Assembly (NCBI GenBank): GCA_024275995.1
Contig: JAJRYB010000046.1
Coordinates: 1-58,746 of the forward strand
Source: Planctomycetota bacterium
Lineage (GTDB): Bacteria > Planctomycetota > Phycisphaerae > SM23-33
Length of the DNA: 58,746 bases
Reading direction: 5' to 3'
In this document: positions 5,447 through 31,733 of the stretch, in pieces
How positions within the stretch are numbered: the first letter of the stretch is position 1
Layout of the letters: every line of letters starts with the position of its first letter
Notes under the pieces: generated by a model
Told to the model about the DNA's origin: nothing
The model's input: the letters and a program-made list of their open reading frames with translations, nothing else
Databases searched by the model: none
Made by a program: the position numbers and the translations under genes

Positions 5447-5696
5447 GGGACCCCTATACAAAGTTCCTCCCGCGCAATATGTTTATAGATAGTAAGTTAC
5501 GATGAAACAAAGCCGGGACGGACCGGTATCCGCAGGCAGCGGGACATTACAAAACGGACGCCGGGTCGATGTTTGAAATAATATCAAAACTCAATCGAAC
5601 GACGATTCCACCCACTCGTGGTAGTATCCGAATCGTCGTGATCGCACGGGGCGATCGGAAATCAGGACAACATTCCTTTTCTTGGAGGCAGCAAAG

Positions 5697-12954: not shown

Positions 12955-13035
12955 CTTTATCAGATCCTGTTATCGTTACCGACCAACCCCACAATAAATT
13001 ATACTCAAAGTGCCCGCCAAATAACCGCCTCAAGG

Positions 13036-14103: not shown

Positions 14104-14270
14104 ACTTGCGAAGCCTCTACGAAACTCCTTCACTGGATAACAATGCACAGTGTAGCATTTCGCCGATGCACTGTGAACAGGCAGGGAAAAGTTCTCCGGC
14201 AACCACGCAATTTCAGGGCGGGGAGTGTAATCTGAATACTTTTTGCCGGCGTATTTTTGCCACTATGCGC

Positions 14271-14299
14271 TTGGCACAACCGGTCCTGCGGTTTATACT
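14271..14299 (+). promoter_or_regulatory. Sigma-70 promoter of the ABC ATPase gene
   Basis: TTGGCA at 14271-14276 and TATACT at 14294-14299 are separated by 17 bases. The start codon at 14334 lies 35 bases beyond the -10 box. Confidence 0.7.
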
Positions 14300-14333
14300 C
14301 GACCAATCGGATTCATGGAGAAAGGACAACCCC

Positions 14334-15467
14334 ATGGCGGAAATTTTTTTTGATAACATATGCAAGACCTTTCCCGGCGGCGTAGAAGCCGTGAAAGATT
14401 TCACGCTGACTATTCATGACAAGGAATTCATGGTCTTTGTCGGTCCGAGCGGTTGCGGCAAATCGACGACGCTTCGCATGGTCGCCGGACTTGAGGAAAT
14501 CACCGATGGGACCATCCGCATCGGGGACAAAATCGTCAATGACGTGCCACCCAAGGATCGCGATATCGCGATGGTATTCCAGAATTATGCGCTGTACCCG
14601 CACATGACGGTCTATCAGAACATGGCCTTCGCTTTGAAGCTGCGCAAGTATCCGAAACAGGAGAGAGACAAACGCGTGCACGATGCGGCGAAAATCCTCG
14701 GTATCGAGGAGTTGCTGGAGCGTCGACCCAAGGCGCTGTCAGGCGGACAGAGGCAGCGTGTAGCCGTCGGCCGGGCCATCGTGCGCCACCCGGCTGCGTT
14801 CCTGTTCGACGAGCCGCTTTCGAACCTGGACGCCAAACTCCGCGTCGAAATGCGTGCCGAACTGAAGCGGCTGCATGCAACGCTGGAGACCACGACCATC
14901 TACGTCACGCACGATCAGGAAGAGGCCATGACTCTCGGGAATCGTATAGTCGTGATGAAAGACGGCGTGATACAGCAGTGCGGAGCGCCGCTCGAGGTGT
15001 ACAACAGCCCGACTAACCGGTTCGTAGCCGGTTTCGTCGGAACGCCACCAATGAATTTCTTCGCCGGTTCTCTGACCGGCGATGACGGGGATCTCTGGTT
15101 CGATGAAGGCTCCTTCCGAATTCGCCTGGAGAAACAGCAGGCCGACCATCTGGGCTCCTGGACCGGCCGAGATATGATTTGCGGCGTTCGACCGGAGGCA
15201 ATGGGCCTTGTCGGAGACGGGCGGTTCGCAGGCCGGGACAATACGATAACTGTCCGTGTCAATGTCATTGAACCTTTCGGCGAAAGCATGGATATCTACG
15301 TCGCAACGCCGAAGCATCCGCACATCGTGGCGCGCACTGAAGCACGTTCGGACATCGAACCGGACCAGAACCTTAAACTGCACCTGGACATGTCCAGGAT
15401 ACACATCTTCGAGCCTGGAGATATGGGAGCGAATCTCAGTCGTAAGGGCGAACCGGCTGTAGTCTGA
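14334..15467 (+). CDS. Sugar ABC transporter ATP-binding protein (MsmX/UgpC type)
   Basis: A 377-residue CUT1-family ATPase that powers sugar import. The start is ATG 14334 with AGGA just upstream; the open frame before it is not coding-like. Walker [10 protein letters not shown] is at residues 37-45, the Q-loop is in [18 protein letters not shown], the signature is [15 protein letters not shown], Walker B is [13 protein letters not shown] and the switch His is in [14 protein letters not shown]. The C-terminal third is the TOBE regulatory region ([11 protein letters not shown]). It has its own promoter and converges with the long leftward operon, whose two permease genes lack an ATPase. It is therefore the likely energy-coupling subunit for that importer and perhaps for others, as MsmX-type ATPases are shared. 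Confidence 0.95.
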
Positions 15468-15508: not shown

Positions 15509-16291
15509 CTAGCCGCCGGATGAAAGAAGCCCAAGCGTATCGAGAATCGCGCGAGCGTTCTCGTAATAGATTTTGTCCATGCTCCGCTCGAAACCGAGCT
15601 TCGAGAGTGCGCCGGCGCTTCGCGTAAGCATTTCTTCGATATCCATACAGTCGGATCCCCACAGAATCTTCTCCGGGGGGATCGAACCGGCAATCGCGCC
15701 GGTGCACTCGAGGACCCAGAGACCCTGCCCCGGCGAGCAATCGACGTAGGTGTTCGGCGTGCGCGTCGTGAGCATGACGGACTCGAGGAAACCGTCAATA
15801 CCGCCCATATGCGCCATGATAAAGATAGTCTCCGGAAACCGTCGGATGACCTTCTCGAATCGACCGGGGTGAGAGTAATACGCAGCCGTTACCCCATATT
15901 TCGGCGCCAACCATCCGCAGTGGCTCAACACGGCCATCTTTAATTCCGCGATAGCGTCAAAGAACGGTAGAAATGTCTCGTCGTCCGGGAAATAACCAAA
16001 ATTCGGAAACAACTTCACCACACGAAAACCTTCCGCATTCCAGTGCCGAAGTTCCGTGATGGCCTTGTCGCCTTCTCTGGGGTCCAGGTATGCCCCACCG
16101 GCCAGACGATCCGGAAACTGGCGCATCGCCCGTAACACATCTTCGTTGGAGCCTTGCGGCAGGCCGAGCAGGATCGTCGCATCGATGTTGTTGGCATCCA
16201 TTACCTCGATTACGGAAGACGGAGATTGCCCATCCCATAAATGGTTATGGGCATCGATGATTCTCCTGGGGAGCATGGTTTTATCAGTCAT
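15509..16291 (-). CDS. Amidohydrolase family 2 metal-dependent hydrolase
   Basis: This 260-residue TIM-barrel protein of the Amidohydro_2 type starts at the ATG at 16291. The metal-site motif DAHNHLWDG is at residues 13-21. Further metal or catalytic candidates are SHCGW, FIMAHMGG and ILWGSDCMD near the C-terminus. Members hydrolyse lactones, decarboxylate or cleave C-C bonds in sugar-acid and aromatic metabolism. As the last gene of the uptake operon, 23 bases after the GH4 gene, a lactonase or related step on an oxidised sugar would fit the dehydrogenase upstream. That substrate is inference. Confidence 0.83.
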   Translation of the reverse strand: MTDKTMLPRRIIDAHNHLWDGQSPSSVIEVMDANNIDATILLGLPQGSNEDVLRAMRQFPDRLAGGAYLDPREGDKAITELRHWNAEGFRVVKLFPNFGYFPDDETFLPFFDAIAELKMAVLSHCGWLAPKYGVTAAYYSHPGRFEKVIRRFPETIFIMAHMGGIDGFLESVMLTTRTPNTYVDCSPGQGLWVLECTGAIAGSIPPEKILWGSDCMDIEEMLTRSAGALSKLGFERSMDKIYYENARAILDTLGLLSSGG

Positions 16292-16314
16292 TGCCGTCTC
16301 GCCCTATGGTTATT

Positions 16315-17694
16315 TCATATCTTCCAGCCGGGCAGTTTTGCGCGGGTCGCGCGCAGCATTTCGTTGAACATCTTCCAGGCAGTATCCGTCGGAAGGCTCA
16401 TCAGCGGATCGTTCAGGAACGCCTGGAAGGCCAGGTTCTTGTCCAGCTTCATCGCCGCCTCGACGATAATTTCCTGGTTCGAGATGGTCCGCGAGACAAG
16501 CGCCTCGACGCCGGCGGGAAGCCGCCCGGCGAATTCCGGTTTTACGCTGTCCAGCGTGAAGTACGCGTTCGTTTCGACTACGGCGTCCTTCGGAAGTCCC
16601 TCGATCTGCCCGACGTTCGGCAGGTTTACGTTCGTGCGCAGGTCGCCCATTCCGAGCACGGCCATTATCTGGCGGATGCCTTCTTCGTCGGAGCGGTTGA
16701 GCTTGAACGGCTTCTTGCCTGCAAGTTTCTTGCGGAACTCCTTCGGCAAGCGCGTGTATCGATCGACGCGACAGCTGTACGGAGTGCACTTGACGCCCCA
16801 GCGATGGAGGGTCCGCTCGTTCCGGAGATAGAACGGAACGAATTCGACGATGTGCCGTTCCCCCGCAGCCGGTAGTATTCCGTACCGCCGGAACAGGTCG
16901 CGAGTAACCATCCCCTTGTGGGCGAAATAATCCATCTCGGCGATTTCCTCTTCCGGGACGCCGCGAATCGGACCTCGCTTGCGAACGTCTTTGGCGTAAA
17001 GTTCCAGCAGGTCGATTCCGTCATACGTCGCCTTATCGACCCACGTGAAGTGATTGACGCCCAGCACGTTCACGCGGATATCATCACGCGCCGGCTTCTT
17101 TTCGTAGTATTCCTCGACGAGATCGGCAAGCATGCTCTGCGTGCTGAACACCTCGTGGCAGCAGCCGAACGCCTTGATCTGCGGGAACACCTTGTAGAGT
17201 GTGCGAGTGCAGACGGTCATCGGATTGGTGTAGTTGATCACCCATGCGCCGGGGCAGTATCGTTCGACAGCCTCTGCGATAACAACGTAATCAAGCACAG
17301 TCCGCAGAGATCGGCACAGACCGGCCGGTCCCACGGTATCGCCGACCGTGTGGAGGATGCCGTATTTCTTCGGTATCTCCAGATCGCTGCCCATCATTTC
17401 GATCGGTCCCGGCTGGATGCTCGCGACGACGAAGTTCGCCCCCTTCAGCGCCTCTCGCAATGTCTTCGGCACGGTGTATCGCCACTGCGACTTTGCCTGC
17501 GGCGATGCGTTGACTCGCCTGCCCCAACGCGCGTTGAGCATCGCCATCGGACGGTTCGTATCGTAAAGCGCCACCTCCCCCGTAAGATGCGGGCATATTG
17601 CCAGGTCGTTCATGAGTGTGTGCGCCCATCCACGCGACCCGCCACCGATGTATGCGATCTTGATTTTTTCTGCGTTCTTGCTCTGCCTGCTCAT
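16315..17694 (-). CDS. GH4 family NAD-dependent glycosidase, CHEV subgroup (alpha-galacturonidase-like)
   Basis: A 459-residue GH4 enzyme starting at the ATG at 17694. The N-terminal Rossmann region KIAYIGGGSRGW binds NAD(H), and GH4 enzymes cleave by transient C3 oxidation with a divalent metal. The metal/catalytic motif is C-H-E-V at about residues 179-182 (AFGCCHEVFSTQ), followed by VNVLGVNHFTWV. As I recall, GH4 subgroups differ at this motif, and CHEV marks the LplD-type alpha-galacturonidases. INYTNPM is also typical of the family. This points to an acidic sugar substrate, consistent with the Lys substitution in the neighbouring kinase. The enzyme is cytoplasmic and acts after import. 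Confidence 0.9.
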   Translation of the reverse strand: MSRQSKNAEKIKIAYIGGGSRGWAHTLMNDLAICPHLTGEVALYDTNRPMAMLNARWGRRVNASPQAKSQWRYTVPKTLREALKGANFVVASIQPGPIEMMGSDLEIPKKYGILHTVGDTVGPAGLCRSLRTVLDYVVIAEAVERYCPGAWVINYTNPMTVCTRTLYKVFPQIKAFGCCHEVFSTQSMLADLVEEYYEKKPARDDIRVNVLGVNHFTWVDKATYDGIDLLELYAKDVRKRGPIRGVPEEEIAEMDYFAHKGMVTRDLFRRYGILPAAGERHIVEFVPFYLRNERTLHRWGVKCTPYSCRVDRYTRLPKEFRKKLAGKKPFKLNRSDEEGIRQIMAVLGMGDLRTNVNLPNVGQIEGLPKDAVVETNAYFTLDSVKPEFAGRLPAGVEALVSRTISNQEIIVEAAMKLDKNLAFQAFLNDPLMSLPTDTAWKMFNEMLRATRAKLPGWKI

Positions 17695-17756
17695 CAAAGT
17701 CTCAACTTTCCGTGTATGCGATTGGTCACTCAGCCACCCGATGCAGCCGGAAAAGG

Positions 17757-20234
17757 TTAAACGTAGTCCACTTCGATAACGTGTTTCTTTCCCGCCCTGA
17801 AACGCCCGGCAGGAATGAAACTGTCAATGCGCTCACCGTCAAGCAGCACCTTCTGATCATCCCCGCGTCTCAGGTGGACATCGAGCCGGCTGTTTCGGAA
17901 CAATCGCCGGACGCGATATTCATTCCAGGCGGAAGGTGGAGCAGGACGGATATGCAGGCCGTCGAAATCCGGAAGCACACCGGCAATAGTTTCTATGGTT
18001 CGCCTGTACCAGTTAACCGACCCTGTGAAGTTACTGAACAGGTTAGCGCCGAAACCGACATGATCCGGACCGACGGCGAAGTTGGACTGCTGGTGCGGAG
18101 GCGCGGTGCTGATATCCGGAACGAGTCCGCTGGGCAGCGTTTTGTGAATCTCGTCGTACCACCGATCAGACCGTCCCGTCGCAGCGAGCGCGTAAAGGTA
18201 GAACGATTCGCCGTGGGTGTAAATGCTGCCATTTTCGAACATGCCGGGAATCTGGTCGGCAATGCGTCCGACGTCTTCCCGGCTGCGATTAGTGTAGGGC
18301 GGTTTGAGCAGGCAGTGTCCGACGGGAGTAGCCAGTTGCTCGACAGCCTTCCATACCTGCTCGGATCTTCCCGCCGCGTCGGCAACACCGGAAAACAGCG
18401 CCCAGGTGTTGACGTTCAGGTGTATCTCGCCTTCCTCGCAGGTATGCGACCCGATGGGAGCGCCGCGGTTATTGATGGCGTATATGTACCACTGGCCGTC
18501 CCATGCGTGCTCGTTGATGCGGGCGGTAAGCGTCTCGACAATGCGGTCAAATTCCTCGGCGTCAGCGGTGCGATCAAGATTCCGAGCGAGACTGCCCATC
18601 AATCGGGCCGCGTATACGCATGCGCATGACAGCCAGACGCTTACACCCTTTTCTCCGCCGATACCTGACAGCGCGTCATTCCAGTCGCCGTATCCGATAG
18701 AGCAAAGCCCGTGGTAACCGGTATTTGCGAACAGGTTTCGCACGGCCAGGCATGCATGTTCATAGACGCTGGCTTTTTCGGTCCGGCTCGGCTGGAGCGT
18801 TTCGGCGTCGAGGAACGCCACGGGCACGTCCACGAATTCCATGTCGCCCGTCTGTTTCAGGTACGTCACGAGCGTATCGGGAATCCAGACCGGGGAATCC
18901 TGATACATCCGCACGTCATGTCCGCAGCCGGGGAATCGCTCATACTGGCGGACCGCGCGACCATCGGCGAACTGGTACTGCAAGGCTACCAAAAGCTGAT
19001 CCCGAACGAACGGCCATTCGAAATCGCACACGCCCATCAGGTCCTGAAGCACGTCCCGGTATCCAACCTTATCCAACGCCGCAATAAAGCGGGCCTGATT
19101 CCGCGCCTGGTAGCGGGACCACACGTTGAAGTAGCGGTCAAGTTCAACATCGGGGGTCTGGATGGCGCTGGCGTTGACGTTTTGCTTCCACCGGCGGCCT
19201 AGCGCGTCCAGGCAGGCATCGGGACGGGAAAGAACGTCCTCGCGGACCTTGGCTAGATATTCCTTTCGCTCCGCCGGGTCAAGGGGACATTTTCCGTATG
19301 CAACTGTCCATGTCTTCTCTTGTCCCGGCGCAAGTTCGGCGCAGAATTGAGCAGCCGCCACCAGTCCGGCGAAGGGTTGGAGGCCAAGGGAGTCGAAGCA
19401 TTTTCCCCTTTGCACGGCGGCAGGGATGGGCGCCCTTCCGGTTCCACCGTCAAAGACTTCTCCCATCATGTCAAAACCGTCCATCTCCTCGGACGAGGCG
19501 AAGAAGGCGCCGCGCGGGTGCTTGTTGCTCTGATCGTGGTTGAGGAAGACCATTGCGCCGTCTTCCAGCAATCCCTCGCAAACGACGCGCGGGACGAAGT
19601 AATAAAAGGGGAAGCTATCGACGTTGACACGGATGCGAAGGAACCAGGAAAAGTTCCTGTCACAGTCGGCTGCGTTGCCGATCGTGATCCGCCAGAGTTC
19701 GAGCGGCATCTCGGCATGGACAAAGACGGACAGGCGACAGGTGAGCTTATCGCGGGCGGCGGCGATCTCAAATCGGTCCATACCCTGGCGACACTGATAG
19801 CCTTCGTACTTCTCCTCCTGGTATCCGACGACAGGAAACATCGGCCAGCTTCGCTCATCTTCGTGGATATAGAAGCCGCGGACATCCTGAGGCTCGGGGC
19901 AGGTCGGAACGTAATTCGTGTCGAGATGACTTGTCATCTTGCCGGCCATTACGCTATCGACGAAGCTGAACCCTCCGCAGTGCTGATCCCAGAACGTGCC
20001 CCACTGGCCCGTCCGTCGGTGATGCGTACTGGACATCAGATGAAGCACCGGTCTCGGTGTGTGAAGCGAGTTCACCAGCACTTGCCCGTCCACGAGAAAA
20101 CCCTCTTCGTCCCGAATATCGTTCAGGGTGCAATATCGCGTGCGAATGGCTTTCCGCTGCTGGTCATTCATGCCGGAAAGCGGATCCCGGCCGGCTCGGA
20201 GATTCTCCCTGCACTTGTGGACCATATCATCCAA
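17757..20234 (-). CDS. GH94 family glycoside phosphorylase (cellobiose/chitobiose phosphorylase-like)
   Basis: An 825-residue inverting phosphorylase that splits a beta-linked disaccharide with phosphate to give an alpha-sugar-1-phosphate. Length, the N-terminal beta-sandwich (TGQWGTFWDQHCGGFSFVDS) and the alpha/alpha barrel fit the family. The catalytic Asp lies in YGDWNDALSG near residue 560, and FENGSIYTHGESFYLYAL and SGLVPDIST follow. I kept TTG 20234 because AGGA lies nine bases upstream; an ATG at 20225 is the alternative. The sugar-1-phosphate it yields could feed the nucleotidyltransferase, and the released monosaccharide the kinase, both encoded just upstream. There is no signal peptide, so it is cytoplasmic. 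Confidence 0.92.
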   Translation of the reverse strand: MDDMVHKCRENLRAGRDPLSGMNDQQRKAIRTRYCTLNDIRDEEGFLVDGQVLVNSLHTPRPVLHLMSSTHHRRTGQWGTFWDQHCGGFSFVDSVMAGKMTSHLDTNYVPTCPEPQDVRGFYIHEDERSWPMFPVVGYQEEKYEGYQCRQGMDRFEIAAARDKLTCRLSVFVHAEMPLELWRITIGNAADCDRNFSWFLRIRVNVDSFPFYYFVPRVVCEGLLEDGAMVFLNHDQSNKHPRGAFFASSEEMDGFDMMGEVFDGGTGRAPIPAAVQRGKCFDSLGLQPFAGLVAAAQFCAELAPGQEKTWTVAYGKCPLDPAERKEYLAKVREDVLSRPDACLDALGRRWKQNVNASAIQTPDVELDRYFNVWSRYQARNQARFIAALDKVGYRDVLQDLMGVCDFEWPFVRDQLLVALQYQFADGRAVRQYERFPGCGHDVRMYQDSPVWIPDTLVTYLKQTGDMEFVDVPVAFLDAETLQPSRTEKASVYEHACLAVRNLFANTGYHGLCSIGYGDWNDALSGIGGEKGVSVWLSCACVYAARLMGSLARNLDRTADAEEFDRIVETLTARINEHAWDGQWYIYAINNRGAPIGSHTCEEGEIHLNVNTWALFSGVADAAGRSEQVWKAVEQLATPVGHCLLKPPYTNRSREDVGRIADQIPGMFENGSIYTHGESFYLYALAATGRSDRWYDEIHKTLPSGLVPDISTAPPHQQSNFAVGPDHVGFGANLFSNFTGSVNWYRRTIETIAGVLPDFDGLHIRPAPPSAWNEYRVRRLFRNSRLDVHLRRGDDQKVLLDGERIDSFIPAGRFRAGKKHVIEVDYV

Positions 20235-20270
20235 ATGTTTTTTTCCTGTCAGTTACACATGTAACGTTGC

Positions 20271-21662
20271 TCAAAGATTGATTTCGAACGCAGCAGGCCC
20301 CGGTTCGATCAGGAAGAACGCCGCCCGTTTTGCATCGTCCGGATAGGCATGTTTGTAGGCGTCGGACCACCGGTCGAGCATCTGGTCGGACCCTTCGATT
20401 CGGACCATTGCCCAGACGCTCCCACCAAAGCCCGCCCCGAATGCAGAGGCCGCAACAGCCCCGCAATCGACCGCCGAGTCCGCAAGGAAACATGTTTGGG
20501 GAACCTGATTACCGAGAAGTTTTTCGGCGCCGTCCTGGGAGCGTTCCACAAGCTTGCCGAACTCGTCGAGGTCGCCTCTCAGCAGCGCGTCGCCCGCGGC
20601 CGGAATGACCTCCTCGCTCTCCAGTACGAAATGATTGAACCGTGCAAGGAGGTCCTCGGGAGAAAATTCGTCTCCGACCCGCGCCGACAGGGCAGCGCGT
20701 ATTTTTTCCTTCATCTCTTCGATCGGGCCTGCAGCAAGCGCCGCGGCGATGTTGGGCTCGTCGCGCCCACTCGCCTGGCGCCACGCCTCGACTACTGCTC
20801 CGGCGAGCAGGGAAGCGCGATTGTATTTCCCCATCGCCTCGCCGGTCTTCTCAGCCACTACCCCGGACGACGCCACCGCAAAGGCCAGACCCGCAGGCAG
20901 CTCCATGTGCCTCTCGAAGCGGGTCGGGCAGTAGGAATACTGGCTCAGCATGCGTGGTTTGCAGCACATGATAGCCGTGTGGTCTTCGCTCCCGCCGAAC
21001 GTTCCGACTCCCTTGTCCCCCGCCAGTGTGCCGAAGCTTTGCCCGTTCTCCACCGTGCCCAGGTATCCGGCGAGGTCCTCAACGCAGTGGATATTCTCTA
21101 CATACTCGGCCCGCGCCGTCAGATCGTTGCACGCGGAAAGTGCAGTAAAACAGGCAATCATCAATGCACTGGAACTGCTCATCCCCGCTGCGGGTGGAAG
21201 GTCTGAACGAAAGACCCCGGACAGGCCGAAAATCCGTCCTGGGAAGTTTCTGGCAACTCGCCTCGCGACGGTCATCGGGTAGTTTGACCAGTGACCCACT
21301 TTGGGAGCCAGGTCGGGTGAGATGGAGAAATTGACCCGATCGTCGGCGTCCAATTCCATGATACTGACCTGTTCGTCATCGCGTGGAACGATCACGAAAC
21401 AGAAGCCCCTGTCAGCGGCTACGACCATGCTGCGACCGCCGACATAATCGGTATGCTTGCCCAGAACTTCGATACGACCGGGCACGAAGAAGGCCCTAGC
21501 CTCTGCGCTTTTCGGGTTGTCGGATGCGATCAATGCTTCTGCCGCTCGCGCAACGAACCCGGCCTTTTTCACAGCCGACATGTCGCCAAGCCCGCTATCC
21601 AGCAACGATTGTTCCACCGCATGGACGTTGGTTAAATTGTCCAGAGACACACCCGGACTCAA
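20271..21662 (-). CDS. Galactokinase-like GHMP kinase with variant sugar-binding motif
   Basis: A 463-residue GHMP kinase. TTG 21662 is preceded by GGAGG seven bases away, and its first bases overlap the stop codon of the upstream nucleotidyltransferase gene (tTGA), so translation is coupled. Motif 1 is PGRIEVLGKHTDYVGG, where true galactokinases have GRxNLIG-E-HxDY; Glu, which contacts the sugar O6, is Lys here. Motif 2 is PPAAGMSSSSAL (ATP phosphate binding) and motif 3 is AFGAGFGGSVWAMV. I recall a subfamily with GKHTDY in acidobacteria and planctomycetes annotated only as galactokinase. A C6-carboxylated or otherwise unusual sugar is a reasonable substrate, inferred from the Lys and the GH4 CHEV neighbour. 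Confidence 0.88.
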   Translation of the reverse strand: MSPGVSLDNLTNVHAVEQSLLDSGLGDMSAVKKAGFVARAAEALIASDNPKSAEARAFFVPGRIEVLGKHTDYVGGRSMVVAADRGFCFVIVPRDDEQVSIMELDADDRVNFSISPDLAPKVGHWSNYPMTVARRVARNFPGRIFGLSGVFRSDLPPAAGMSSSSALMIACFTALSACNDLTARAEYVENIHCVEDLAGYLGTVENGQSFGTLAGDKGVGTFGGSEDHTAIMCCKPRMLSQYSYCPTRFERHMELPAGLAFAVASSGVVAEKTGEAMGKYNRASLLAGAVVEAWRQASGRDEPNIAAALAAGPIEEMKEKIRAALSARVGDEFSPEDLLARFNHFVLESEEVIPAAGDALLRGDLDEFGKLVERSQDGAEKLLGNQVPQTCFLADSAVDCGAVAASAFGAGFGGSVWAMVRIEGSDQMLDRWSDAYKHAYPDDAKRAAFFLIEPGPAAFEINL

Positions 21663-22468
21663 AGGTTTACCTCCACAGAGGCGAGGGCTTTCTTGACCCC
21701 GACAATGTCCGTTCTACTTGTCAGGTCAAGAACGGGAGCACTGACGTTCACAACCGCGAATGTCTGGTCGAGATTGTCTATTGCATACTGGACGGCATCG
21801 GTCACCTCGAGTTCGCCGCGTGGCGACGGGCCGATCGACCGGCAGGCATCGTATATTTTCGGACCCATTCGCCAGCAATTCATCGAGATGCGCACAGGCT
21901 GGTCGAGAGCCTCGATGTCCTCCGGACTCGGCTTTTCGATGATGCGCACCATGTTTCCCGCCTCGTCGACGGCAATGACGGCGAACTTCGCGATCCGTTC
22001 CGGTGAGATATTACTGTCGGCGAACATCCCTTCCCGTTCGAAACCAACCAGGCCATTATCGCAGTCCAACTCCCGGAGAGCAGCCAGGCTTGAAGTAGGG
22101 TAGTAATTGTCCGAGTTTATTATCAGCACCGGCTCGCCTGCGGCGAATTCCTCTGCAGCCAGCACGGCATCGGCTGTGCCCTTAGGCTCGACCTGAATCG
22201 CAAAGGAAATGTTTACGCGCCGAGTCTCAAGATTCTCATAATAAGCGCGAAATTCGGTGTGTTCAGGGCCTATCACCAGGCACACATGCCGGTATCCCGC
22301 ATCCGCCAGTCCGCTGATAACGTAATCCAGGAACGGCCTGTCTATGGGGATCATGGCCTTTACGCCGGTGTTGGCGACGGCGATTTCGTCGGCCGACAGA
22401 TCAGCCAACCCGTCTTCCTTTCGCATTCGGGTCCCGAGTCCCCTCGCCAGTATAACTGCCTTGTCCAT
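21659..22468 (-). CDS. Sugar-1-phosphate nucleotidyltransferase
   Basis: A 269-residue NTP-transferase (RmlA/GalU-type Rossmann fold) starting at the ATG at 22468 with AAAGGA five bases before it. The nucleotide-binding loop reads LARGLGTRMR, with Arg where LAGGLGTR or LAAGLGTR is usual. The Lys of GVKAMIPIDRPFLDYVI fits the substrate phosphate site, and the metal-binding Asp is in LIINSDNYYP. KPSPEDI and GELEVTDAVQYAI complete the family pattern. It would join NTP and a sugar-1-phosphate to give an NDP-sugar. Its stop overlaps the kinase start, so kinase and transferase very probably work in sequence. Confidence 0.88.
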   Translation of the reverse strand: MDKAVILARGLGTRMRKEDGLADLSADEIAVANTGVKAMIPIDRPFLDYVISGLADAGYRHVCLVIGPEHTEFRAYYENLETRRVNISFAIQVEPKGTADAVLAAEEFAAGEPVLIINSDNYYPTSSLAALRELDCDNGLVGFEREGMFADSNISPERIAKFAVIAVDEAGNMVRIIEKPSPEDIEALDQPVRISMNCWRMGPKIYDACRSIGPSPRGELEVTDAVQYAIDNLDQTFAVVNVSAPVLDLTSRTDIVGVKKALASVEVNL

Positions 22469-22499
22469 GGTTTCCTTTCGCCGGTTATCCCGCTACCTA

Positions 22500-23747
22500 T
22501 CAGCCGACCTCGACTACTGTGCCGTCGCGCCGTGCCCGTTCAGCAGCGAATACCATAAGGTGTGATTCCAGAGTCTCATCCGGTCCGGAAAGAATCTTCG
22601 TCGGGTCATTCCCGGCGACGGCGTCAAGGAAGCTCTCCATCAGCCGAGAGTCCCCGCCGCCATGTCCGCTTGTGATTGTCGAACCCGTCGTCTTGGTGTC
22701 TATCACTTCTGTCGCCTGAGTCAAGAAGTCGAAATGCTCGATTTTGCTGCCGTCGCCTTCTATCTGTCCCCTCGTGCCGAAAATTCGCGTTTTTCGTCCT
22801 CCCACATCACTGAAAGCCGTCATGGTGAACGTCGCGCTGCGTCCGCCGTCAAACTCCATGTTCACCACCTGGTGATCGACGACATCGTTATCGCACGCGT
22901 ATACGCATCTGCCGTAAGGTCCGCTCCGCAGCGCCTCGGTAACTCCCTCTACGGTCACATCGTAAGTCAGCACGTCAACGGGCCAGCCCGTATGACCTTT
23001 CGCAAGACGTCCAAGATAGATCTTCCTGGCCGAATAAGGACAGTCCGGTTCGACGCCGCAGTCGAGGCACCTGTCGGATGCGCCTGCGGGTTGGCATTCC
23101 TTCCTGAAATGATACAACGATCCAAACGACGAGACGCGCTTGCACGGAACGCCCATGATGTACCTGAGCCAATCCAGATCATGGCAGCTCTTGGCGAGCA
23201 GCATGCTGGACGAGGTGCCCTCATTGCCCCAGTTCCCGCGAACGAAGGAGTGCGCCTGATGCCACCACCCTACCGGTTCGAGATGCTGCACGCTGACGAT
23301 CTCGCCGATTACACCGGAATCCAATAACCCCTTGAGAGTCTGCGTGTAATCGGTGTATCGCATTACGTGACAAACGGCAAACAGAACGCCGTTGTCCTTG
23401 ACGGCCTGCACGATCCGCCGGCTTGCAGCTTCATCCGGCGCCATGGGCTTCTCCAGGAGCATCGCGTAGCCCTTTTCCGCAAAAGCAACGGCTGGATCGG
23501 CATGCAAAGCATCGCAAGTGCTGATAATGACAGCGTCGGCAAATTTTTCGCGCCGTGCCGCCTGCCTCCAATCCGTAAAGACGTTCTCCGGCGCAATACC
23601 GCAACTCTTGACAAGGACGTCGCGGTATTCGTCACGCGGTTCGGCGAGTCCGACTACTTTACCAAGATCGGGGTGTTTGGTTACGAAATTCGCGTAACCG
23701 GAGCCTCGGCCACCACCACCGATCACTAACAACTTGACGGGTTCCAA
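22500..23747 (-). CDS. Gfo/Idh/MocA-family NAD(P)-dependent dehydrogenase
   Basis: A 415-residue oxidoreductase. The start is TTG 23747, seven bases after AGGAG. The Rossmann motif LVIGGGGRGSGYANF is at the N-terminus, and the EKPMA motif with the conserved Lys is near residue 100. CHDLDWLRYIMG carries the catalytic-type His-Asp pair. A cysteine group C-L-D-C-G-V-E-P-D-C sits near residue 225 and may hold zinc or stabilise a loop. Such enzymes oxidise or reduce sugar hydroxyls or inositols. Within the operon it may modify the imported sugar before or after hydrolysis. The substrate is unknown. Confidence 0.9.
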   Translation of the reverse strand: MEPVKLLVIGGGGRGSGYANFVTKHPDLGKVVGLAEPRDEYRDVLVKSCGIAPENVFTDWRQAARREKFADAVIISTCDALHADPAVAFAEKGYAMLLEKPMAPDEAASRRIVQAVKDNGVLFAVCHVMRYTDYTQTLKGLLDSGVIGEIVSVQHLEPVGWWHQAHSFVRGNWGNEGTSSSMLLAKSCHDLDWLRYIMGVPCKRVSSFGSLYHFRKECQPAGASDRCLDCGVEPDCPYSARKIYLGRLAKGHTGWPVDVLTYDVTVEGVTEALRSGPYGRCVYACDNDVVDHQVVNMEFDGGRSATFTMTAFSDVGGRKTRIFGTRGQIEGDGSKIEHFDFLTQATEVIDTKTTGSTITSGHGGGDSRLMESFLDAVAGNDPTKILSGPDETLESHLMVFAAERARRDGTVVEVG

Positions 23748-23824: not shown

Positions 23825-25756
23825 TCACTTCTCCACCGGAACAACAATACCTCGCATGATGATCTTCTGACAAAAGGCGAAAACGAGAAATGTCGGGATC
23901 GCCGCGACAAGCAACGACGCGTAAATTACTCCCGCGCTACTGCTTTGCTGCAGGTTGTACATCCAGACCATCAGCGTCCACATTTTCCTATCCTGGCATA
24001 TCAGCAGCGCGAACATGAAATTGCTATAGGCCATGTTGAATGCACTTAATGCGATCACGGCCAGGATCGGTTTGCTCAGGCTCATCGTGATCTGCCAGAA
24101 AATCCGGACCTCGCTGGCGCCGTCGAGGGCGGCGCTCTCGTAGAGTTCCTTCGGCAGGGAATCGAAAAATCCCTTCAGCAGGAAGATCGAGTAGCCATTG
24201 GCCAAACCTGGAAGAATCAATGCCCAGAACGTATTGAGCATGTTGAATTCCCGCAGCATCAGGAACGACGGGATTTGCGTGACAACCGGAGGGAAGGACA
24301 TCGTAAGCATCAGGAACAAAAGTATCTTGTACGCTGAAGGAAGCTTGAAACGACTCAGCGCGTAGGCGGCCAGGGGATTGACCAGCAGCGCTCCGAATAC
24401 GGCCAGGACGCAATAGATAGCCGTGTTGAGCACACCCCGCCCGTGCATCACCAGGTAGTCGAAGACGGTGATGAAGTTGCGAATGACGAACTCCCACCTC
24501 AGTGCGCCCTTCTGATTCTGAAAGGCGAGAAAATGGGTGTCCCGCTGCGGCGGCATGACGTCCTCCCACTTCGTATAGGAGGTGCCCATCGCGCGGTTGA
24601 ACTTCTCGATGTCGCCGTACTTGTCCCGCAGGTGGTCCCGGAACATGAACTCTATGCCGCGGATGCGGATTTTATCGGCCGGAAGGATATACATCTCCCC
24701 GCTGGTGGGATCCTTCCATCCCTGCAGAAACGCTTCCCAGTCGGACAAAGCCAATCCGAACGACGGGGGTTCTTTAATCAGTGGTATTTGTCCGAAATTC
24801 GCATACTGCGTATGGTAATTCCGGTTGAGCTTCTCGATGTCGCCGTACTTGGCCTCGAGGAATTGCCGGTAGCGAGGGGCTGTGGAATCATCTGCACGAA
24901 TCCATAAAAGGTTCAGCAGCGTACGGGCGAATCCTTCCCAATCCCGGCGCTCGGCGTCTGTCCGACCCTCGCCTGAAGGCAGAACCCTGTCCATATGCAC
25001 CTGGTCGTAGGAGGCATATGATGTGCCGTGAGTTCGATTGTACTCGGCGATTGGCGGTTCGGTTGCATCCTGCCCGCGATATTGGGTCTTGAGATGCGTC
25101 CGATAAAAACCATCGATCGAGAAATAGAAGCGATTACCGAGAGGCTGGCGTGACTTGAACTCGCGCATGGCAGTAGCGAAGGGAGAATCAAGCTGCTTGA
25201 AACGTCGCTGCAGATAGTCCTCCCGCCTCGGGACGAACACGCTCCAACTGATGAATTCGGTTCCGAATTCCCTGTTGAGCCTGGCGATGTCGCCATCGAA
25301 TCGCCGGTTGAGTTCGGCCCGGAATTCACGCATTACCTTGGGCTGGGTCCCTCGCGACGTTGGCGAATGGACGTAACCGATGGTGTATGTGTAGTGAGAC
25401 GGTTTTGTCTCGTCGAGGAACGTGCGCCACGCCTCCACCAGCGCCGTATTGGGACGCTCCGGCAGTTCCAATGTCTCAAAGACGCCGTTATCGCCTGGAT
25501 ATGTCTGGCGCATCGCCAGCGAGGACTCGTTGAACAGGCCCTCGACGTGTTTTGCCCATAACGCCCGATCATTGGTGAGGAACTCGGGAATCAGGCGAAA
25601 CTCGGCCTTGTCCGTACCGCTCTTCGAACTGCCGGCTATCATGAGCCCGAACGGGAAGAGCATCGTTACGGAACCGGCAATCAACATCATGTAGATCGCG
25701 TAGATCAGCAGACGCGTCTTGACGCTCCGGCGACCAATTTTTGAGATAATCGCCAC
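23825..25756 (-). CDS. MalG-type ABC sugar permease with large periplasmic repeat insertion
   Basis: A 643-residue permease; MalG-type subunits are usually about 280. GTG 25756 has AAGGAG six bases upstream. TM1 is at residues 17-40. Residues 50-425 form an insertion absent from ordinary MalG proteins, predicted periplasmic because it follows TM1. It holds four related repeats of the form Y-G-D-I-x-x-L-N-x-x-x-G-T-x-Y, at about 151-172, 235-252, 302-325 and 378-400. From 440 the normal permease core resumes, with the EAA loop YESAALDGASEVRIFWQ for ATPase docking. The repeat resembles the short helix-turn element seen in GH42 enzymes (YGxIExLNxxWGT), so sugar binding or docking of the partner binding protein is possible. 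It is encoded three bases after the fused binding protein-permease gene. Confidence 0.9.
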   Translation of the reverse strand: MAIISKIGRRSVKTRLLIYAIYMMLIAGSVTMLFPFGLMIAGSSKSGTDKAEFRLIPEFLTNDRALWAKHVEGLFNESSLAMRQTYPGDNGVFETLELPERPNTALVEAWRTFLDETKPSHYTYTIGYVHSPTSRGTQPKVMREFRAELNRRFDGDIARLNREFGTEFISWSVFVPRREDYLQRRFKQLDSPFATAMREFKSRQPLGNRFYFSIDGFYRTHLKTQYRGQDATEPPIAEYNRTHGTSYASYDQVHMDRVLPSGEGRTDAERRDWEGFARTLLNLLWIRADDSTAPRYRQFLEAKYGDIEKLNRNYHTQYANFGQIPLIKEPPSFGLALSDWEAFLQGWKDPTSGEMYILPADKIRIRGIEFMFRDHLRDKYGDIEKFNRAMGTSYTKWEDVMPPQRDTHFLAFQNQKGALRWEFVIRNFITVFDYLVMHGRGVLNTAIYCVLAVFGALLVNPLAAYALSRFKLPSAYKILLFLMLTMSFPPVVTQIPSFLMLREFNMLNTFWALILPGLANGYSIFLLKGFFDSLPKELYESAALDGASEVRIFWQITMSLSKPILAVIALSAFNMAYSNFMFALLICQDRKMWTLMVWMYNLQQSSSAGVIYASLLVAAIPTFLVFAFCQKIIMRGIVVPVEK

Positions 25757-25759
25757 GAG

Positions 25760-28552
25760 CTACTCCTTGTCTCCGGTAGTACGGAATTCCAGGCGAGAGA
25801 GAATTCGCAACTGGTAAAGAGTGAAACCGATCAGCATGAACGCCAGCACCCACGCCATGGCTGTTGCCGGTCCGAACTTGAGATAGGTGAACGCCTTGTA
25901 CCAGATGTGCAACCCTGCGACCTCCGTATTGGCCCCACCACCGGTCATGACGAGGATTCGCCCCGTCGCACCGTACCATGACGCTATGAATACGCCTATG
26001 AAATTGATGAGTATCAGCGGTTTGAGGATCGGAAAGACCACAAACAGCACCTTGTCGATAAAGGTCGCACCGTCGATGTCTGCCGCCTCGTAGAGATCGT
26101 CGGGGATACCTTTCAGTGCCGCCAGATAGATCAGGCACCCGGGACCCATACCGGCCCAGACCATGGGGATAACGCATGCGATCATCGCCGTGCTCGAATC
26201 GCCCAGCCAGTAGTACGGCTCGGGGGTCACCGCGAACAATCGCGACGGCAGTTGGGACGCGCTCACCCAGAACGTCTCCGTCGATGGAAACAGGATCGGC
26301 CAGGCCATGGACACACCGGCCAGCAGCAGGATCCCCGCCGCCAGACCGCAAAACCCGCCCGCGACACGTTTCCCGTGGTACCATAACCGCCGGGCAAACA
26401 GCGCCGGGATCACAAAGAGGATTGCGCCGACAAGCAGGAACCCGATAGATGGAACGCTAAGGACGAGACGATTGAGCACGCCGAGTTCGGACGGGCTGAA
26501 GAACTGCTTCCACAGGATCATCATCACCAGGGCGGTGATCACCGCCGGCAGGTAGTAGATCGTACGGAACAACAGCTTGCCGCGCGGCACCTCGTGCAGG
26601 AAAATCGCCAGGATGATCGGAGGAAAGAACGTCAGTGACACGACCAGGAAGCTGTAGCGTATCGCGTTCCAGACCGATTGCCACCAGGCGTCATTCCAGA
26701 GCAGGTCTCCGAAGTTCTGCACCCCCACCCAGCTCGATTCCCCCAGCAGGCGATAGTCCTGGAACGCCATTACCGACCCTCGTATCAGGGGAATGTATCG
26801 CCAGAGAAGGATCGTCAACACTGCGGGCAGCAGAATCACATACGCCCATGCGTATTTGCGAAAACCCCAGAGCACCTGCTTGCCCTTTGCAACACCCGGA
26901 AGTTTGGGCGGCGTGAAAATGCGTATGATCTTGCGAAAGACCAGCGCGAATGCAATCACTATGGCGATCAGCACGGCGGTGGCCGTCCAATCCCGCAGGC
27001 GACGCTCTCCCGGTGGAATGATGCCGATCATCTCCTCGTTTGCACGGGCATTCGCCTTCTTCAGCAGTCCCTGCATGACGTCCAACCTGGCTTGGTAGTT
27101 CTCAGGCAGCGCGTCGTCCCGTGCGAGCCTCGCAGCCTCCTGCATCGGAAACGTCATCAGCTCGTATGCGAAATTGCTGTTGCGTCCGTATGGTTCGGGC
27201 TTGCCGGTCTCGATGGCTATTTCGAACGTCTTCGCCCAGCCTTTGGGCGCCAATCGCTCTATTTCGGGATATCCGAACATCCGCAGGTACTTCGGGTTGA
27301 CGAACGGCCCCATACCACCTTCGACCATTACGCCGATCTTGATTCGCGCGGCGTCCTTGCTATCGTAGAACCGCATGTATTCCCAGGCGGCGTCTCGGAC
27401 GGCCCGGTCCTTGATGTCAGAGAAGAGTCCCATCATCCGGCTGTTCAACTCTGCGCCGCGCATCCGCTTGCCATTCTTGTCCGGAGGACCAAGCGGCACC
27501 GGAACCATGCCGGTTACTTCCGGATCAATCTGCGAGAGGAGTTTTTCGTCTACATATTCGAAACGCATGGCGATCTCGCCACGAGCCCACTTGGCGCCGC
27601 CCTGGCCCTCCTTGTAGGCATAGCCGCGCCTGATCTTGCCTTCGCTGTCGATCCATTTCTCGTTGCACAGGCGAGTGTAAAATTCCAATGCGACCGCCGC
27701 CTCCCGCGAATCGAACACGGTTAGCCATTCTTCGGTCTTAGGATCGTAGGTCATCACTTCGCCACCGGCGGACCAGAGGAACGTGACCCAGTACCACGAT
27801 TCATGTTTTCCACGGGCGAATTGTATGGCGTAAAGCCCCCGCTTGGGGTCCGTCAGCTTGCGGGAGGCCTCGTAAAGATCTTTCCATGTCCATTGGGCGG
27901 TCGGTCTGGGAATGCCCGCCGCATCGAACCGGTCCTTGCGGTACACCAGCACCCGGCCTATCGCTCCTCCGTAGGGAAGAGCCCAAACGTGTTTCTTTCC
28001 ACCGGGGCCTTTGCGCCGAATCACCGGCCAGATCTTTGGATGGATGCGAAAATCCTGTTCGTCCTTCGTCATGGACGCCAGGTAGCCGTCCTCGGGTTTG
28101 TCCAGCGGGTATAGAAAACCGTTCTGTATGTAGTTGTCGGATTTCCGGAAGTTGACATACAGGACGTCAGGCGCCACGCCTCCTGCAATGGCCAACAGAT
28201 CGACCTCGACCCCCTCCACCCTGATACCCGAAAACTGGTGGAGTTCAATCTCCACCTTGTCCCAGTTGTGTTTTCCGTAGATGTCCGGGTTGGCCTTGTA
28301 CTTGGCGAGATATCTCTTGGCGAAGATCTCCGGGAATCGCCGTCTGAACTCCCTGACCCCGGCCACTTCCGATTGCGTATAAGTGTCCGTCCACGTCGGG
28401 TCCGGGAGGGTATGCAGTACCACATGGATTACTGTTGTGCCGTCCTCGCGATCTTCGATCCACCCAGCGAAAGAGGGTCCGGCGAGGCTGACAATCAGGC
28501 ATGAGGCGATCAACAGGACGTTGCGAAATAAGGAACGGGAGATATTTCTCAT
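25760..28552 (-). CDS. Solute-binding protein fused to MalF-type ABC sugar permease
   Basis: A 930-residue fusion. Residues 1-29 are a signal sequence ending SFA. About 30-505 form a family-1 sugar-binding protein (GVAPDVLYVNFRKSDNYIQNG, then ALPYGGAIGRVLVYRKDRFD). TM 521-540 leads back to the cytoplasm. The MalF core starts with TM 568-592 and ends with the EAA loop YEAADIDGATFIDKVLF near 820-837. Between the usual third and fourth core helices, residues 697-785 add two hydrophobic segments (about 702-720 and 730-752) that ordinary MalF proteins lack. Covalent attachment of the receptor guarantees one binding protein per transporter. The uncoupled ATPase at 14334-15467 is the likely partner. 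This is the first gene of the leftward operon. Confidence 0.93.
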   Translation of the reverse strand: MRNISRSLFRNVLLIASCLIVSLAGPSFAGWIEDREDGTTVIHVVLHTLPDPTWTDTYTQSEVAGVREFRRRFPEIFAKRYLAKYKANPDIYGKHNWDKVEIELHQFSGIRVEGVEVDLLAIAGGVAPDVLYVNFRKSDNYIQNGFLYPLDKPEDGYLASMTKDEQDFRIHPKIWPVIRRKGPGGKKHVWALPYGGAIGRVLVYRKDRFDAAGIPRPTAQWTWKDLYEASRKLTDPKRGLYAIQFARGKHESWYWVTFLWSAGGEVMTYDPKTEEWLTVFDSREAAVALEFYTRLCNEKWIDSEGKIRRGYAYKEGQGGAKWARGEIAMRFEYVDEKLLSQIDPEVTGMVPVPLGPPDKNGKRMRGAELNSRMMGLFSDIKDRAVRDAAWEYMRFYDSKDAARIKIGVMVEGGMGPFVNPKYLRMFGYPEIERLAPKGWAKTFEIAIETGKPEPYGRNSNFAYELMTFPMQEAARLARDDALPENYQARLDVMQGLLKKANARANEEMIGIIPPGERRLRDWTATAVLIAIVIAFALVFRKIIRIFTPPKLPGVAKGKQVLWGFRKYAWAYVILLPAVLTILLWRYIPLIRGSVMAFQDYRLLGESSWVGVQNFGDLLWNDAWWQSVWNAIRYSFLVVSLTFFPPIILAIFLHEVPRGKLLFRTIYYLPAVITALVMMILWKQFFSPSELGVLNRLVLSVPSIGFLLVGAILFVIPALFARRLWYHGKRVAGGFCGLAAGILLLAGVSMAWPILFPSTETFWVSASQLPSRLFAVTPEPYYWLGDSSTAMIACVIPMVWAGMGPGCLIYLAALKGIPDDLYEAADIDGATFIDKVLFVVFPILKPLILINFIGVFIASWYGATGRILVMTGGGANTEVAGLHIWYKAFTYLKFGPATAMAWVLAFMLIGFTLYQLRILSRLEFRTTGDKE

Positions 28553-28957: not shown

Positions 28958-31573
28958 TCAGCGGAATCGAAGTTCGCCCCACAACAGCGGGTTAATCGCG
29001 TCGTACTGCGGCGCCCACGTATAGGCCGACTCGCTCCTGACCGCCGGGTTGGCTGTGACGTTCAATCGCCAGAGATCTCTCCTTCGCGGACGGCGCCCCA
29101 GAAGGGCAAAAGGCACTGTCACCCTCACCTGCCAGCCGTCGTCGTTCCACGAGAAATCCGCCCTGACCTTCACGTCGGGCTTGCGGTCCATACTGACTGA
29201 GCGTCCTTCCGGCCAGATGATAAAACTGTGCCGCTCGCCGGTTTCGCCTGTTTCGACGTATATCCGCGTTACCCAGGAATCGTCGCCGCTGCCCCTGCAC
29301 TCCCGCCAGGCAGCCTTTCGCCGTTCGGGGTCCACTCCACGCTCCCGCACCTCCACAACCAGGGCTTTACCGGTGCGCCAGGTCTGGAAGGACAAGTCCG
29401 AAGCCCTCAGGTAGTCGATCGGCCTGAAAAAACCGATAAAATCGTACACGAAATTGTATCCGGCGCGGAAGCAGTGATCGTGCTGGAGAGGAAGGAAGGT
29501 TCCGATCGGCCTGTCCGGGCATATCGCCGCGGGAGGAACCGTCCGCGCCAGCTCGTTTTCCACGTACTGTCGCCATAATCGCACGTTTGCCGCCAGGTCC
29601 TGATGTTGCGGCGCCGCCAATGACGACAGTGATCGTTCAGCGGCCCGAGCGGACGCCCTGAGCAACTTCCTGGCGTGGGTAAGCACCCTGGCACCGTGTT
29701 CTCGGATCGGTCTGACGGTCCGTCGGATTTCGTTGTATATCCTCCGGCTTTCCGGATACTCCGCATAGGCCTTCATGGGCCAGTCAGGCCGCTCGCAAAG
29801 TTCCAGGCATTCCCGAACGGACTCGATGAGTGGAAGCGGGGACAGACGGTATCCGTAACCGGCAAACATTATGGTGGCTCGTTCCATGCTTCGGACGGTC
29901 GGGCTGTTCCTCTCGGCTACGAGAGGCGCGATACGCTCCAGTTCGGAAAGGCCCTTGCGCAAGGCCGATATCACTACAGTCTTGCTCGCGGCGAAATAGA
30001 CGCCATAGAGATGAACAGCGGCAAGTATTTCGCCTTGCACATACTTTCCCAGCGCGGCGTTGCGCTCGAGGTACGTTTCCAGTTCGTCAGCGACCTTTCT
30101 GCCGACCAGGCGACGGTAATTTCCTAAAGAGACGCGGGAAATCTCGACGTTCCTGCCGAGCATGTCTGCGAGCTTTTTGGGGTTGCGCCGGGCGATGGGC
30201 TTGGAGGGGTCTACGTAGTCGATGATATATTGCAGGAAGTTGTCGGGGGCGATTTGCGTATCCATGGTCTTGCCCAGCCATGCCTTGCCGTACGGCGAGG
30301 TCCAGACAGGTCCGCCGGCCTGGTCGTTCAACTCGGTGGCAGGGAAGAACATGAACGGCTCCTGGATGTGCGAGAACCGTCCTGGGTTGAGATATCCTTC
30401 AAAAGCCGAACTGTGACAGAACTGTTGATAGATCAGCAGGATCAACTGGCTGGACGCTTTCACGGTCTCCCGCAGCGTGGCGCCGGCATTGGGTGAAACG
30501 CCGGTCCTGCAGGCCAGCAGTTCGCCCTGCCGGGTCCCGGTGAGTTTTCGACCGACGAAGAAGTCACTGACCGCTTGAAGGTGTAGAAAGTTGTACCTCG
30601 CCAATGACCGCTCGTTTTTCGGAAAGACTCCCTTGGCGCGCATTTCATGCGAGAAGAACTCGTAGGCCGAGTGAAACGCAATGGAGTCCGCCCCCTTGCT
30701 TTCCGCATCCCTCAGGAACTCCTGAATGAATTCGTAATCCCCCCAGAGTTGCTCGCAAAGATTCGTGCCGCAATTGTGGCAGGGGCCGATAAGGAACATG
30801 AACTCCACGTTCCCCAGCGCCTTTTTCCATTCGGCGACCCTGCTGTCAGCCACAGGCAGGTAGTACGCGTCGTTTGTGTCCGCGATCTTGTGCGCAAGGA
30901 TCGCCCTGCCCTTGTAGGAGTCGAGGAGTTTCCGCATGTCTTGCACCGAGTTGAAATTCCACAGCCGATAGACGGCAACGGGCTTTCGCTTCATGCGGTT
31001 GAACTCAACCATCGCCGTTTTCATTACATGCTCGCCTGCGTTCGGGGCGCTTTCGAAATTGAAGTACAACCCGTCGAGGTCCGGAAGCTGGCGGAATATC
31101 TCCCGGTAGCAGTACCTGCAATAGCGATCGACGGCGGGATGAGTGATATCGCTCAACCTTCCGGTTGTAGGGATTCCGTAGGCCTTGGCCAGCGATTCGG
31201 TGAAGTGGGCGACATAGTGCTGCATGAACGTAGTCAGCCCGTAACTACGGGCAATTTCAAGCCCGCGGCAAAGCGATTTACGCACGGACTTTCTATGCGA
31301 GGCCGGCACGGAAACCGCCTGCGGAAAGTCTTTGTAGTCCAGGATGAACTCGAAGGGATGATAGGCGTCAGGGTAGAGCACCAAGCCATTGAAGCCGTGG
31401 CGGACCACCTGGCGGCAGAGCGCTTCCCACATCCGGTCGGTATAGTGCGCAACGTTCCTGCGATCCGCGTGCCTGATCTTGACTTCGTGCTTGTACAGAC
31501 GTGTCTTAAACCGCATGTGCTGCGTGCCGGAGGCCTTGCCGAATGAATGCTCACTGGGATTGTTGCACGACAT
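28958..31573 (-). CDS. Large TIM-barrel glycosidase-like protein with C-terminal CBM9-like domain
   Basis: An 871-residue protein, started at ATG 31573 (MSCNNPSEHS) because AGGA lies six bases before it. No signal peptide is visible. Residues 35-330 look like a TIM barrel (VRHGFNGLVLYPDAYHPFEFI, then LDGLYFNFESAPNAGEH with an acidic cluster, and AVYRLWNFNSVQDMRKLL), of a kind related to alpha-glucuronidase or GH20-like barrels, though no family is certain. A long helical middle follows. The last 170 residues (ALVVEVRERG, TRIYVETGETGERHSF, LWRLNVTANPAVRSESAYTW, LLWGELRF) match the beta-sandwich of CBM9-like modules. C-H-N-C-G-T-N-L-C near 270 might bind a metal. Same strand as the GH43 gene upstream; role in glycan breakdown is inferred. 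Confidence 0.68.
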   Translation of the reverse strand: MSCNNPSEHSFGKASGTQHMRFKTRLYKHEVKIRHADRRNVAHYTDRMWEALCRQVVRHGFNGLVLYPDAYHPFEFILDYKDFPQAVSVPASHRKSVRKSLCRGLEIARSYGLTTFMQHYVAHFTESLAKAYGIPTTGRLSDITHPAVDRYCRYCYREIFRQLPDLDGLYFNFESAPNAGEHVMKTAMVEFNRMKRKPVAVYRLWNFNSVQDMRKLLDSYKGRAILAHKIADTNDAYYLPVADSRVAEWKKALGNVEFMFLIGPCHNCGTNLCEQLWGDYEFIQEFLRDAESKGADSIAFHSAYEFFSHEMRAKGVFPKNERSLARYNFLHLQAVSDFFVGRKLTGTRQGELLACRTGVSPNAGATLRETVKASSQLILLIYQQFCHSSAFEGYLNPGRFSHIQEPFMFFPATELNDQAGGPVWTSPYGKAWLGKTMDTQIAPDNFLQYIIDYVDPSKPIARRNPKKLADMLGRNVEISRVSLGNYRRLVGRKVADELETYLERNAALGKYVQGEILAAVHLYGVYFAASKTVVISALRKGLSELERIAPLVAERNSPTVRSMERATIMFAGYGYRLSPLPLIESVRECLELCERPDWPMKAYAEYPESRRIYNEIRRTVRPIREHGARVLTHARKLLRASARAAERSLSSLAAPQHQDLAANVRLWRQYVENELARTVPPAAICPDRPIGTFLPLQHDHCFRAGYNFVYDFIGFFRPIDYLRASDLSFQTWRTGKALVVEVRERGVDPERRKAAWRECRGSGDDSWVTRIYVETGETGERHSFIIWPEGRSVSMDRKPDVKVRADFSWNDDGWQVRVTVPFALLGRRPRRRDLWRLNVTANPAVRSESAYTWAPQYDAINPLLWGELRFR

Positions 31574-31733
31574 GCCATTTCCTCGAGTAACCGCCGCTCT
31601 CTCGCAAACCCACGTCCGGCGGGGCAATAAGTATATTGTGTCTGGCGCAAATAGCGTTCGATATCGGAATGACAAAATCCCGAACACCGGAGAACTTCGA
31701 AGCGCCGCAATTATTTTACTCAACGGCGCCCAG

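Follow-up and report, generated by a model that had tools for sequence, protein, structure and literature searches.

Genes and topology of the transporter locus

The window, by which we mean the whole 58,746-nucleotide stretch of planctomycete DNA that was analysed, encodes on its reverse strand a MalG-type ABC permease of 643 aa with a giant TM1-TM2 loop (23825 to 25756; ORF, Pfam and NCBIfam evidence). An earlier note made from the sequence had given its coordinates, strand and domain order correctly. The ORF starts with a GTG at 25756, and the stop of the upstream gene lies 3 nt earlier. BPD_transp_1 matches its membrane domain at residues 469 to 636 (Pfam, E 6e-12; 46.1 bits, over a gathering cut-off of 26.4), and the NCBIfam models for UgpE and MalG align with the C-terminal 200 residues, both below their equivalog cut-offs (82.6 against 297 bits and 71.3 against 261 bits, respectively). 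By sequence, the permease is a superfamily relative of the E. coli-type MalG and UgpE, not an equivalog; the solved proteins nearest to it are MalG, AlgM2 and SugB. A phage origin was also considered and rejected, the sole PHROG matches being two families of unknown function, both on the membrane domain.

TM1 (residues 14 to 43 approximately; 25628 to 25717, reverse strand) is evident from hydropathy and as a predicted helix at residues 12 to 42, and basic residues on its N-terminal side point to an N-in orientation. After it, neither hydropathy nor the predicted model places another TM helix before residue 440 or so. The hydrophilic loop between, which holds the repeat array, covers residues 44 to 437 approximately, some 390 residues in all (24446 to 25627, reverse strand). 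It is followed by the MalG membrane domain with TM2 to TM6 (residues ~440 to 643; 23828 to 24439, reverse strand), delimited by Pfam, alignment and model. The EAA coupling loop of this domain, ELYESAALDGASE, at about residues 537 to 549, is intact, and the motif, with its conserved glycine for ATPase coupling, is near-invariant across the homologue alignment A1. The topology predicts a periplasmic TM1-TM2 loop, because only then does the EAA loop land in the cytoplasm, and the basic N terminus agrees.

The gene directly upstream (25760 to 28552, reverse strand) encodes a partner of 930 aa that, by Pfam and hydropathy, combines in one chain a signal peptide, an SBP_bac_1 domain (residues 119 to 401, E 9.5e-22), a linking TM (~519 to 549) and a MalF-type domain with BPD_transp_1 at 685 to 913. 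In alignment A4 this partner also has two extra hydrophobic helices, at residues ~690 to 758, within the periplasmic part that precedes the EAA half; a similar two-helix insert of ~57 aa occupies the corresponding place of MalG in nine other loci (L040, L041, L042, L013, L043, L044, L045, L046 and L050), and L045 apparently has it in both MalF and MalG. A MalK-type ABC ATPase with ABC_tran, OB_MalK and TOBE_2 domains (Pfam) lies on the forward strand at 13947 to 15467 and is the sole OB_MalK match found in the window's genome. Both genetic partners of the permease are present, SBP-MalF adjoining it and MalK in the same window.

Genes for a Gfo/Idh/MocA oxidoreductase, a nucleotidyltransferase, a galactokinase-like GHMP kinase, a GH94 phosphorylase, a GH4 enzyme and an amidohydrolase (Pfam) lie downstream of the permease on the same strand, at 15509 to 23747, and the short gaps between the ORFs suggest one operon. 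The glycan-degrading genes of the window comprise GH94, GH4, GH43 and a sulfatase; in other loci the transporter adjoins GH95, GH29 or PL8 genes. The sampled loci showed no third gene conserved next to the transporter, and the remaining genes of the window's operon seldom appear in homologous loci. A 921-aa protein with no confident Pfam or NCBIfam match is encoded immediately upstream of the transporter genes (28958 to 31723, reverse strand). Farther away, at 5682 to 6929 on the forward strand, a DUF5123 protein with a PEP-CTERM sorting signal is encoded near the sulfatase (7966 to 9648), and in locus L126 a protein kinase fused to an FGE-sulfatase-type domain is encoded near the transporter, at 12698 to 15283.

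The repeat array and its kinship to GH42 glycosidases

The earlier note had described the first periplasmic loop as holding four repeats of the pattern YGDI-x2-LN-x3-GT-x-Y. In its literal form this motif has no occurrence in the permease; as a consensus it stands, since it can be placed four times (residues 154, 233, 304 and 380) when up to four of its nine fixed positions may differ, and shuffled versions of the loop (n = 2000) gave 0.016 occurrences on average and never more than one at the same tolerance. The repeats are accordingly real, and profile-profile comparison raises their number to five. A cross-homologue profile places the units at residues 65 to 115, 138 to 201, 213 to 278, 292 to 345 and 368 to 409, each with E of 2e-6 or below; the 60-position unit model was trained on this family, and its E-values are not independent.

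R2 (residues 134 to 211; 25124 to 25357), R3 (212 to 288; 24893 to 25123), R4 (289 to 365; 24662 to 24892) and R5 (366 to 424; 24485 to 24661), all on the reverse strand, are supported by pairwise alignment, hhalign, the unit HMM and the predicted fold, R5 additionally by Pfam. The most N-terminal unit, R1 (58 to 128; 25373 to 25585, reverse strand), is a divergent copy that the earlier note missed and pairwise alignment did not detect; it is recognized by the unit HMM (E 2e-6), by hhalign (probabilities of 96.5 to 97.0 against R2 to R5) and in the predicted fold. With segment profiles built over 42 homologues (alignment A3), all ten repeat-to-repeat pairs reached hhalign probabilities of 96.5 to 99.1, whereas control blocks (three from membrane domains and four from SBPs, with R1, R2, R4 and R5 as queries) scored at most 2.3. 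These comparisons show that the five segments are homologous to each other.

AlphaFold2 predicted the full permease from 17 aligned sequences with a pLDDT of 78.6 overall and mostly 80 to 95 in the loop; modelled alone, as the earlier note had suggested, loop residues 46 to 433 reached a pLDDT of 94.1 and a pTM of 0.91 (42 aligned sequences). The segment is therefore confidently predicted to be folded, and its topology is periplasmic, not cytoplasmic. Each predicted unit runs from helix A through helix B, a short 3/10-like turn and helix C to a three-residue strand. The complete array had no PDB match when the loop alone was searched with Foldseek (best E 0.33, TM 0.12), and the leading partial matches were mostly glycosidase barrels, for example GH50, GH14 and a GH42 carrageenase. 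A search of BFVD with the loop structure gave no match.

The earlier comparison of the unit to a helix-turn element of GH42 glycosidases proved well founded. Glyco_hydro_42 (PF02449) matches two stretches of the permease (whole-protein E 3e-10), best at residues 371 to 422 within R5, and the loop's sequence profile matches the GH42 beta-galactosidases 9ta3 (E 1.5e-8) and 1kwg (E 3.5e-6, residues 154 to 265) in the PDB. The match to 1kwg starts after the acid/base of that enzyme, which we take to be Glu141, and the best Pfam match spans just profile positions ~153 to 206 of 376, so that a complete TIM barrel with catalytic glutamates is not found. Beta-galactosidase-like ORFs of related genomes usually have one copy of the unit, which, where readable, follows an Asn-Glu motif (L080, L105 and L082), the usual acid/base signature of such enzymes. 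No such motif precedes R2 to R5, and the loop's sole one, at residue 76, sits inside R1; the array is therefore a re-use of a non-catalytic element. The repeat unit is, on these profile matches, homologous to a non-catalytic helix-turn-helix segment located after the acid/base of GH42 beta-galactosidases. A catalytic GH42 domain in the loop is ruled out, as the permease shares with the enzymes nothing but the stretch beyond the acid/base and lacks the catalytic residues. For annotation this means that "beta-galactosidase" matches in these permeases are not enzymes. The segment is also not a common annotated domain: no curated family covers the loop, and Pfam gives only GH42 fragments. Tandem units occur as well in a presumed secreted protein of 1024 aa (L078), which has two to three of them and no permease attached.

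The array family and other long MalG loops

Homologues with three to eight units, about 50 in number, were found across the sampled class and phylum (49 other full-length ones counted by the unit model), with seven units in L128, L129 and L138, eight in L145, and loops of 340 to 895 residues. The loop profile A2 scored above 100 bits in 25 of 298 class genomes and in 22 of 392 phylum genomes, three being common to both sets, and the named relatives that carry the array include an uncultured Lentisphaeria bin, a Phycisphaeraceae bacterium and two Candidatus Zipacnadia bins. The array is thus a family trait, spread over a phylum rich in glycan degraders. Within the window's genome there is a single permease of this kind, the other MalG-like matches being ordinary; ordinary MalG proteins lack such a loop, as the earlier note had said. 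Mean identity among the homologues is 23% in the loop and 59% in the membrane domain.

SBP-MalF lies directly upstream in every homologous locus that includes upstream DNA and is fused in nearly all, the junction of the window's partner recurring in the homologues. With the junction profile A5 in the class, the family mostly scored above 300 bits and its weakest split fragment 133, against less than 94 for other MalF proteins. In L114, L120, L122 and L132 two neighbouring ORFs encode the partner, and some of these splits may be frameshifts; in L120 and L132 the split is possibly either the unfused state of the partner or a frameshift, and in L132 the break lies about where the linking TM ends. 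A single-chain SBP-MalF-MalG fusion, seemingly present as a 1481-aa frame in L037, was rejected: the genes are out of frame with each other, and the length arises from reading stop to stop. An extreme member is G046 (L039 and L047): its partner ORF spans 1497 aa and includes a greatly enlarged SBP part, and its MalG, apparently split across two contigs, has an exceptionally long loop.

More distant SBP-MalF fusions in the class often pair with a MalG carrying a loop of 260 to 331 aa (L192, L193, L198, L201, L213, L222 and L240). These loops look unrelated in sequence to the GH42-type array, and Pfam gave no match in the six of them that were scanned; the L198 loop looks like several beta-rich repeats of ~60 aa. 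Outside the repeat family, loops of at least 300 aa accompany 6 of 13 SBP-MalF fusions versus 0 of 34 unfused MalF proteins (Fisher p 1.6e-4), and loops of at least 200 aa 7 of 13 versus 3 to 5 of 34 (p 0.002 to 0.01), these counts coming from a hydropathy script on a convenience sample of loci and the statistics ignoring phylogeny. The recurrence of unrelated long loops beside other SBP-MalF fusions suggests that systems with a tethered SBP have a need in common. A tethered SBP can do without a large loop, because the fusions of L199, L200, L214, L227, L239 and L241 have a short-loop MalG. A second long-loop class, based on MalG frames of 560 to 790 aa (L016, L019, L020, L023 and L032), was mostly not upheld: translations of the L016 and L032 frames show out-of-frame extensions, not long loops, and the script found loops of only 64 and 32 aa in L019 and L020 (the same as L205 and L206). 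The L023 locus (L213) has a MalG loop of ~325 aa beside an SBP-MalF fusion.

Possible role of the array and comparison with known systems

We tentatively favor a reading in which the array forms a rigid arm in the periplasm that receives the MalF-tethered SBP, or sets its position, in a CUT1-type oligosaccharide importer. The TM1-TM2 loop of MalG would have grown into this arm from five tandem helix-turn-helix units of a kind that occurs once in GH42 glycosidases. In the other half of the system the SBP is joined through an extra TM helix to MalF. Placed next to the translocator entrance, the arm would form a cradle or wall without catalytic activity, keeping the tethered SBP and the oligosaccharide bound to it in place and correctly turned for delivery. 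Its role would resemble that of the P2 loop of E. coli MalF, though on the opposite subunit, and ATP would come from the MalK of the window.

The divergence of the loop follows that of the partner SBP (mirror-tree rho 0.76) more closely than that of its own membrane domain (0.65), and the loop-SBP partial correlation given both membrane domains is 0.58, against 0.16 and 0.29 for the alternatives. Together with the constant pairing with SBP-MalF, this correlated divergence lends modest support to a docking or orienting arm for the tethered SBP. The correlation may instead stem from a shared fast rate and ancestry rather than from contact. Loop length and SBP length are not correlated (rho 0.16, p 0.35), and the low identity of the loop relative to the membrane domain argues against a precise universal loop interface. 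A broader proposal, which we regard as speculative and rather improbable, is that SBP-tethered importers throughout the phylum repeatedly evolved large, unrelated periplasmic arms on MalG, the GH42-type helical array here and other loops of ~260 to 330 aa elsewhere. A captive SBP would dock on such an arm as its fixed partner, and this would take the place of the MalFGK2 model's cycle with a freely diffusing binding protein.

The repeated GH42-type units might instead weakly bind long glycan chains and feed them to the SBP, a possibility that we consider less likely but still a serious one, the strongest of the competing explanations. The unit is common to carbohydrate-active enzymes, the genes beside the transporter degrade glycans in the window and elsewhere, repeat number varies as in binding arrays, and the aromatic content of the loop is fair (F 7.1%, Y 4.7%, W 2.4%). 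However, the part of the enzyme that is shared begins beyond the acid/base and brings no catalytic residues, no ligand site was located in the array, and the conserved positions of the unit look like packing motifs. Less likely again is a mechanical spacer or anchor that would tie the importer to some other partner in the periplasm, the peptidoglycan or the outer membrane, such as a porin or a surface hydrolase, and not to its own SBP. A long, confidently predicted array of variable length, in loops of up to 895 aa, whose sequence diverges fast would suit such a function in the enlarged periplasm of the planctomycete cell plan, but a third gene conserved beside the transporter is missing from the sampled loci. 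Least probable of all, the array could be a selectively weak passenger without a specific role at a tolerant insertion site, as unrelated loops of 200 to 330 aa at the same MalG site elsewhere, the ~500-residue loop there in Thermotogales (PMC2246101) and the low conservation of the loop, the least conserved part of the protein, might suggest, but its retention in ~50 homologues of many families, as well as in Zipacnadia and a Lentisphaeria bin, with open frames, a high-confidence fold and preserved unit signatures, speaks against this.

Returning to the reading as an SBP-positioning arm, the window's importer can be set beside established systems. The textbook picture of SBP-dependent transport comes from CUT1 importers, in which the SBP is free and MalF carries a docking loop. 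The importer of the window has its SBP attached to one subunit and, on the other, an arm of repeats whose unit also occurs in glycosidases, and this widespread planctomycete family seems to be an all-in-one importer of an unusual kind. The earlier suggestion of a new importer design was too strong, as both a giant MalG loop and SBP-translocator fusions have been published; nothing in the open literature searched describes the repeat family or a MalG with GH42 units, and the repeat content, pairing and distribution appear undescribed.

The general design of a MalG with a giant TM1-TM2 loop was reported in 2008 for MalG1 and MalG2 of Thermotogales, which have a hydrophilic region of ~500 residues between TM1 and TM2 that is reported to resemble no known protein (Noll et al. 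2008, PMC2246101). The likeness to the window's permease lies in the size and place of this region; MalE and MalF are separate there, whereas the window's SBP is fused to MalF. The GH42 beta-galactosidases (PF02449; 1kwg, 9ta3) share with each repeat a segment of ~55 residues, at profile positions ~147 to 210; the window's array lacks their TIM barrel and catalytic residues and holds five tandem copies inside a membrane permease. OpuA and GlnPQ, which belong to other importer families, likewise have a binding domain covalently tied to the translocator, but in the window the SBP is of the SBP_bac_1 type and precedes the MalF-type part of its chain, and the array is on the other subunit. Fusions of SBPs to translocators were already known (PMC8276074). 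Finally, E. coli MalFGK2-MalE shares the CUT1 architecture, the EAA loop, a MalK-type ATPase and an enlarged periplasmic loop near the binding protein, but its large loop, of about 180 aa, lies between TM3 and TM4 of MalF (PMC2246101) and its MalE is free, whereas the window's importer carries about 390 aa between TM1 and TM2 of MalG and has its SBP fused to MalF.
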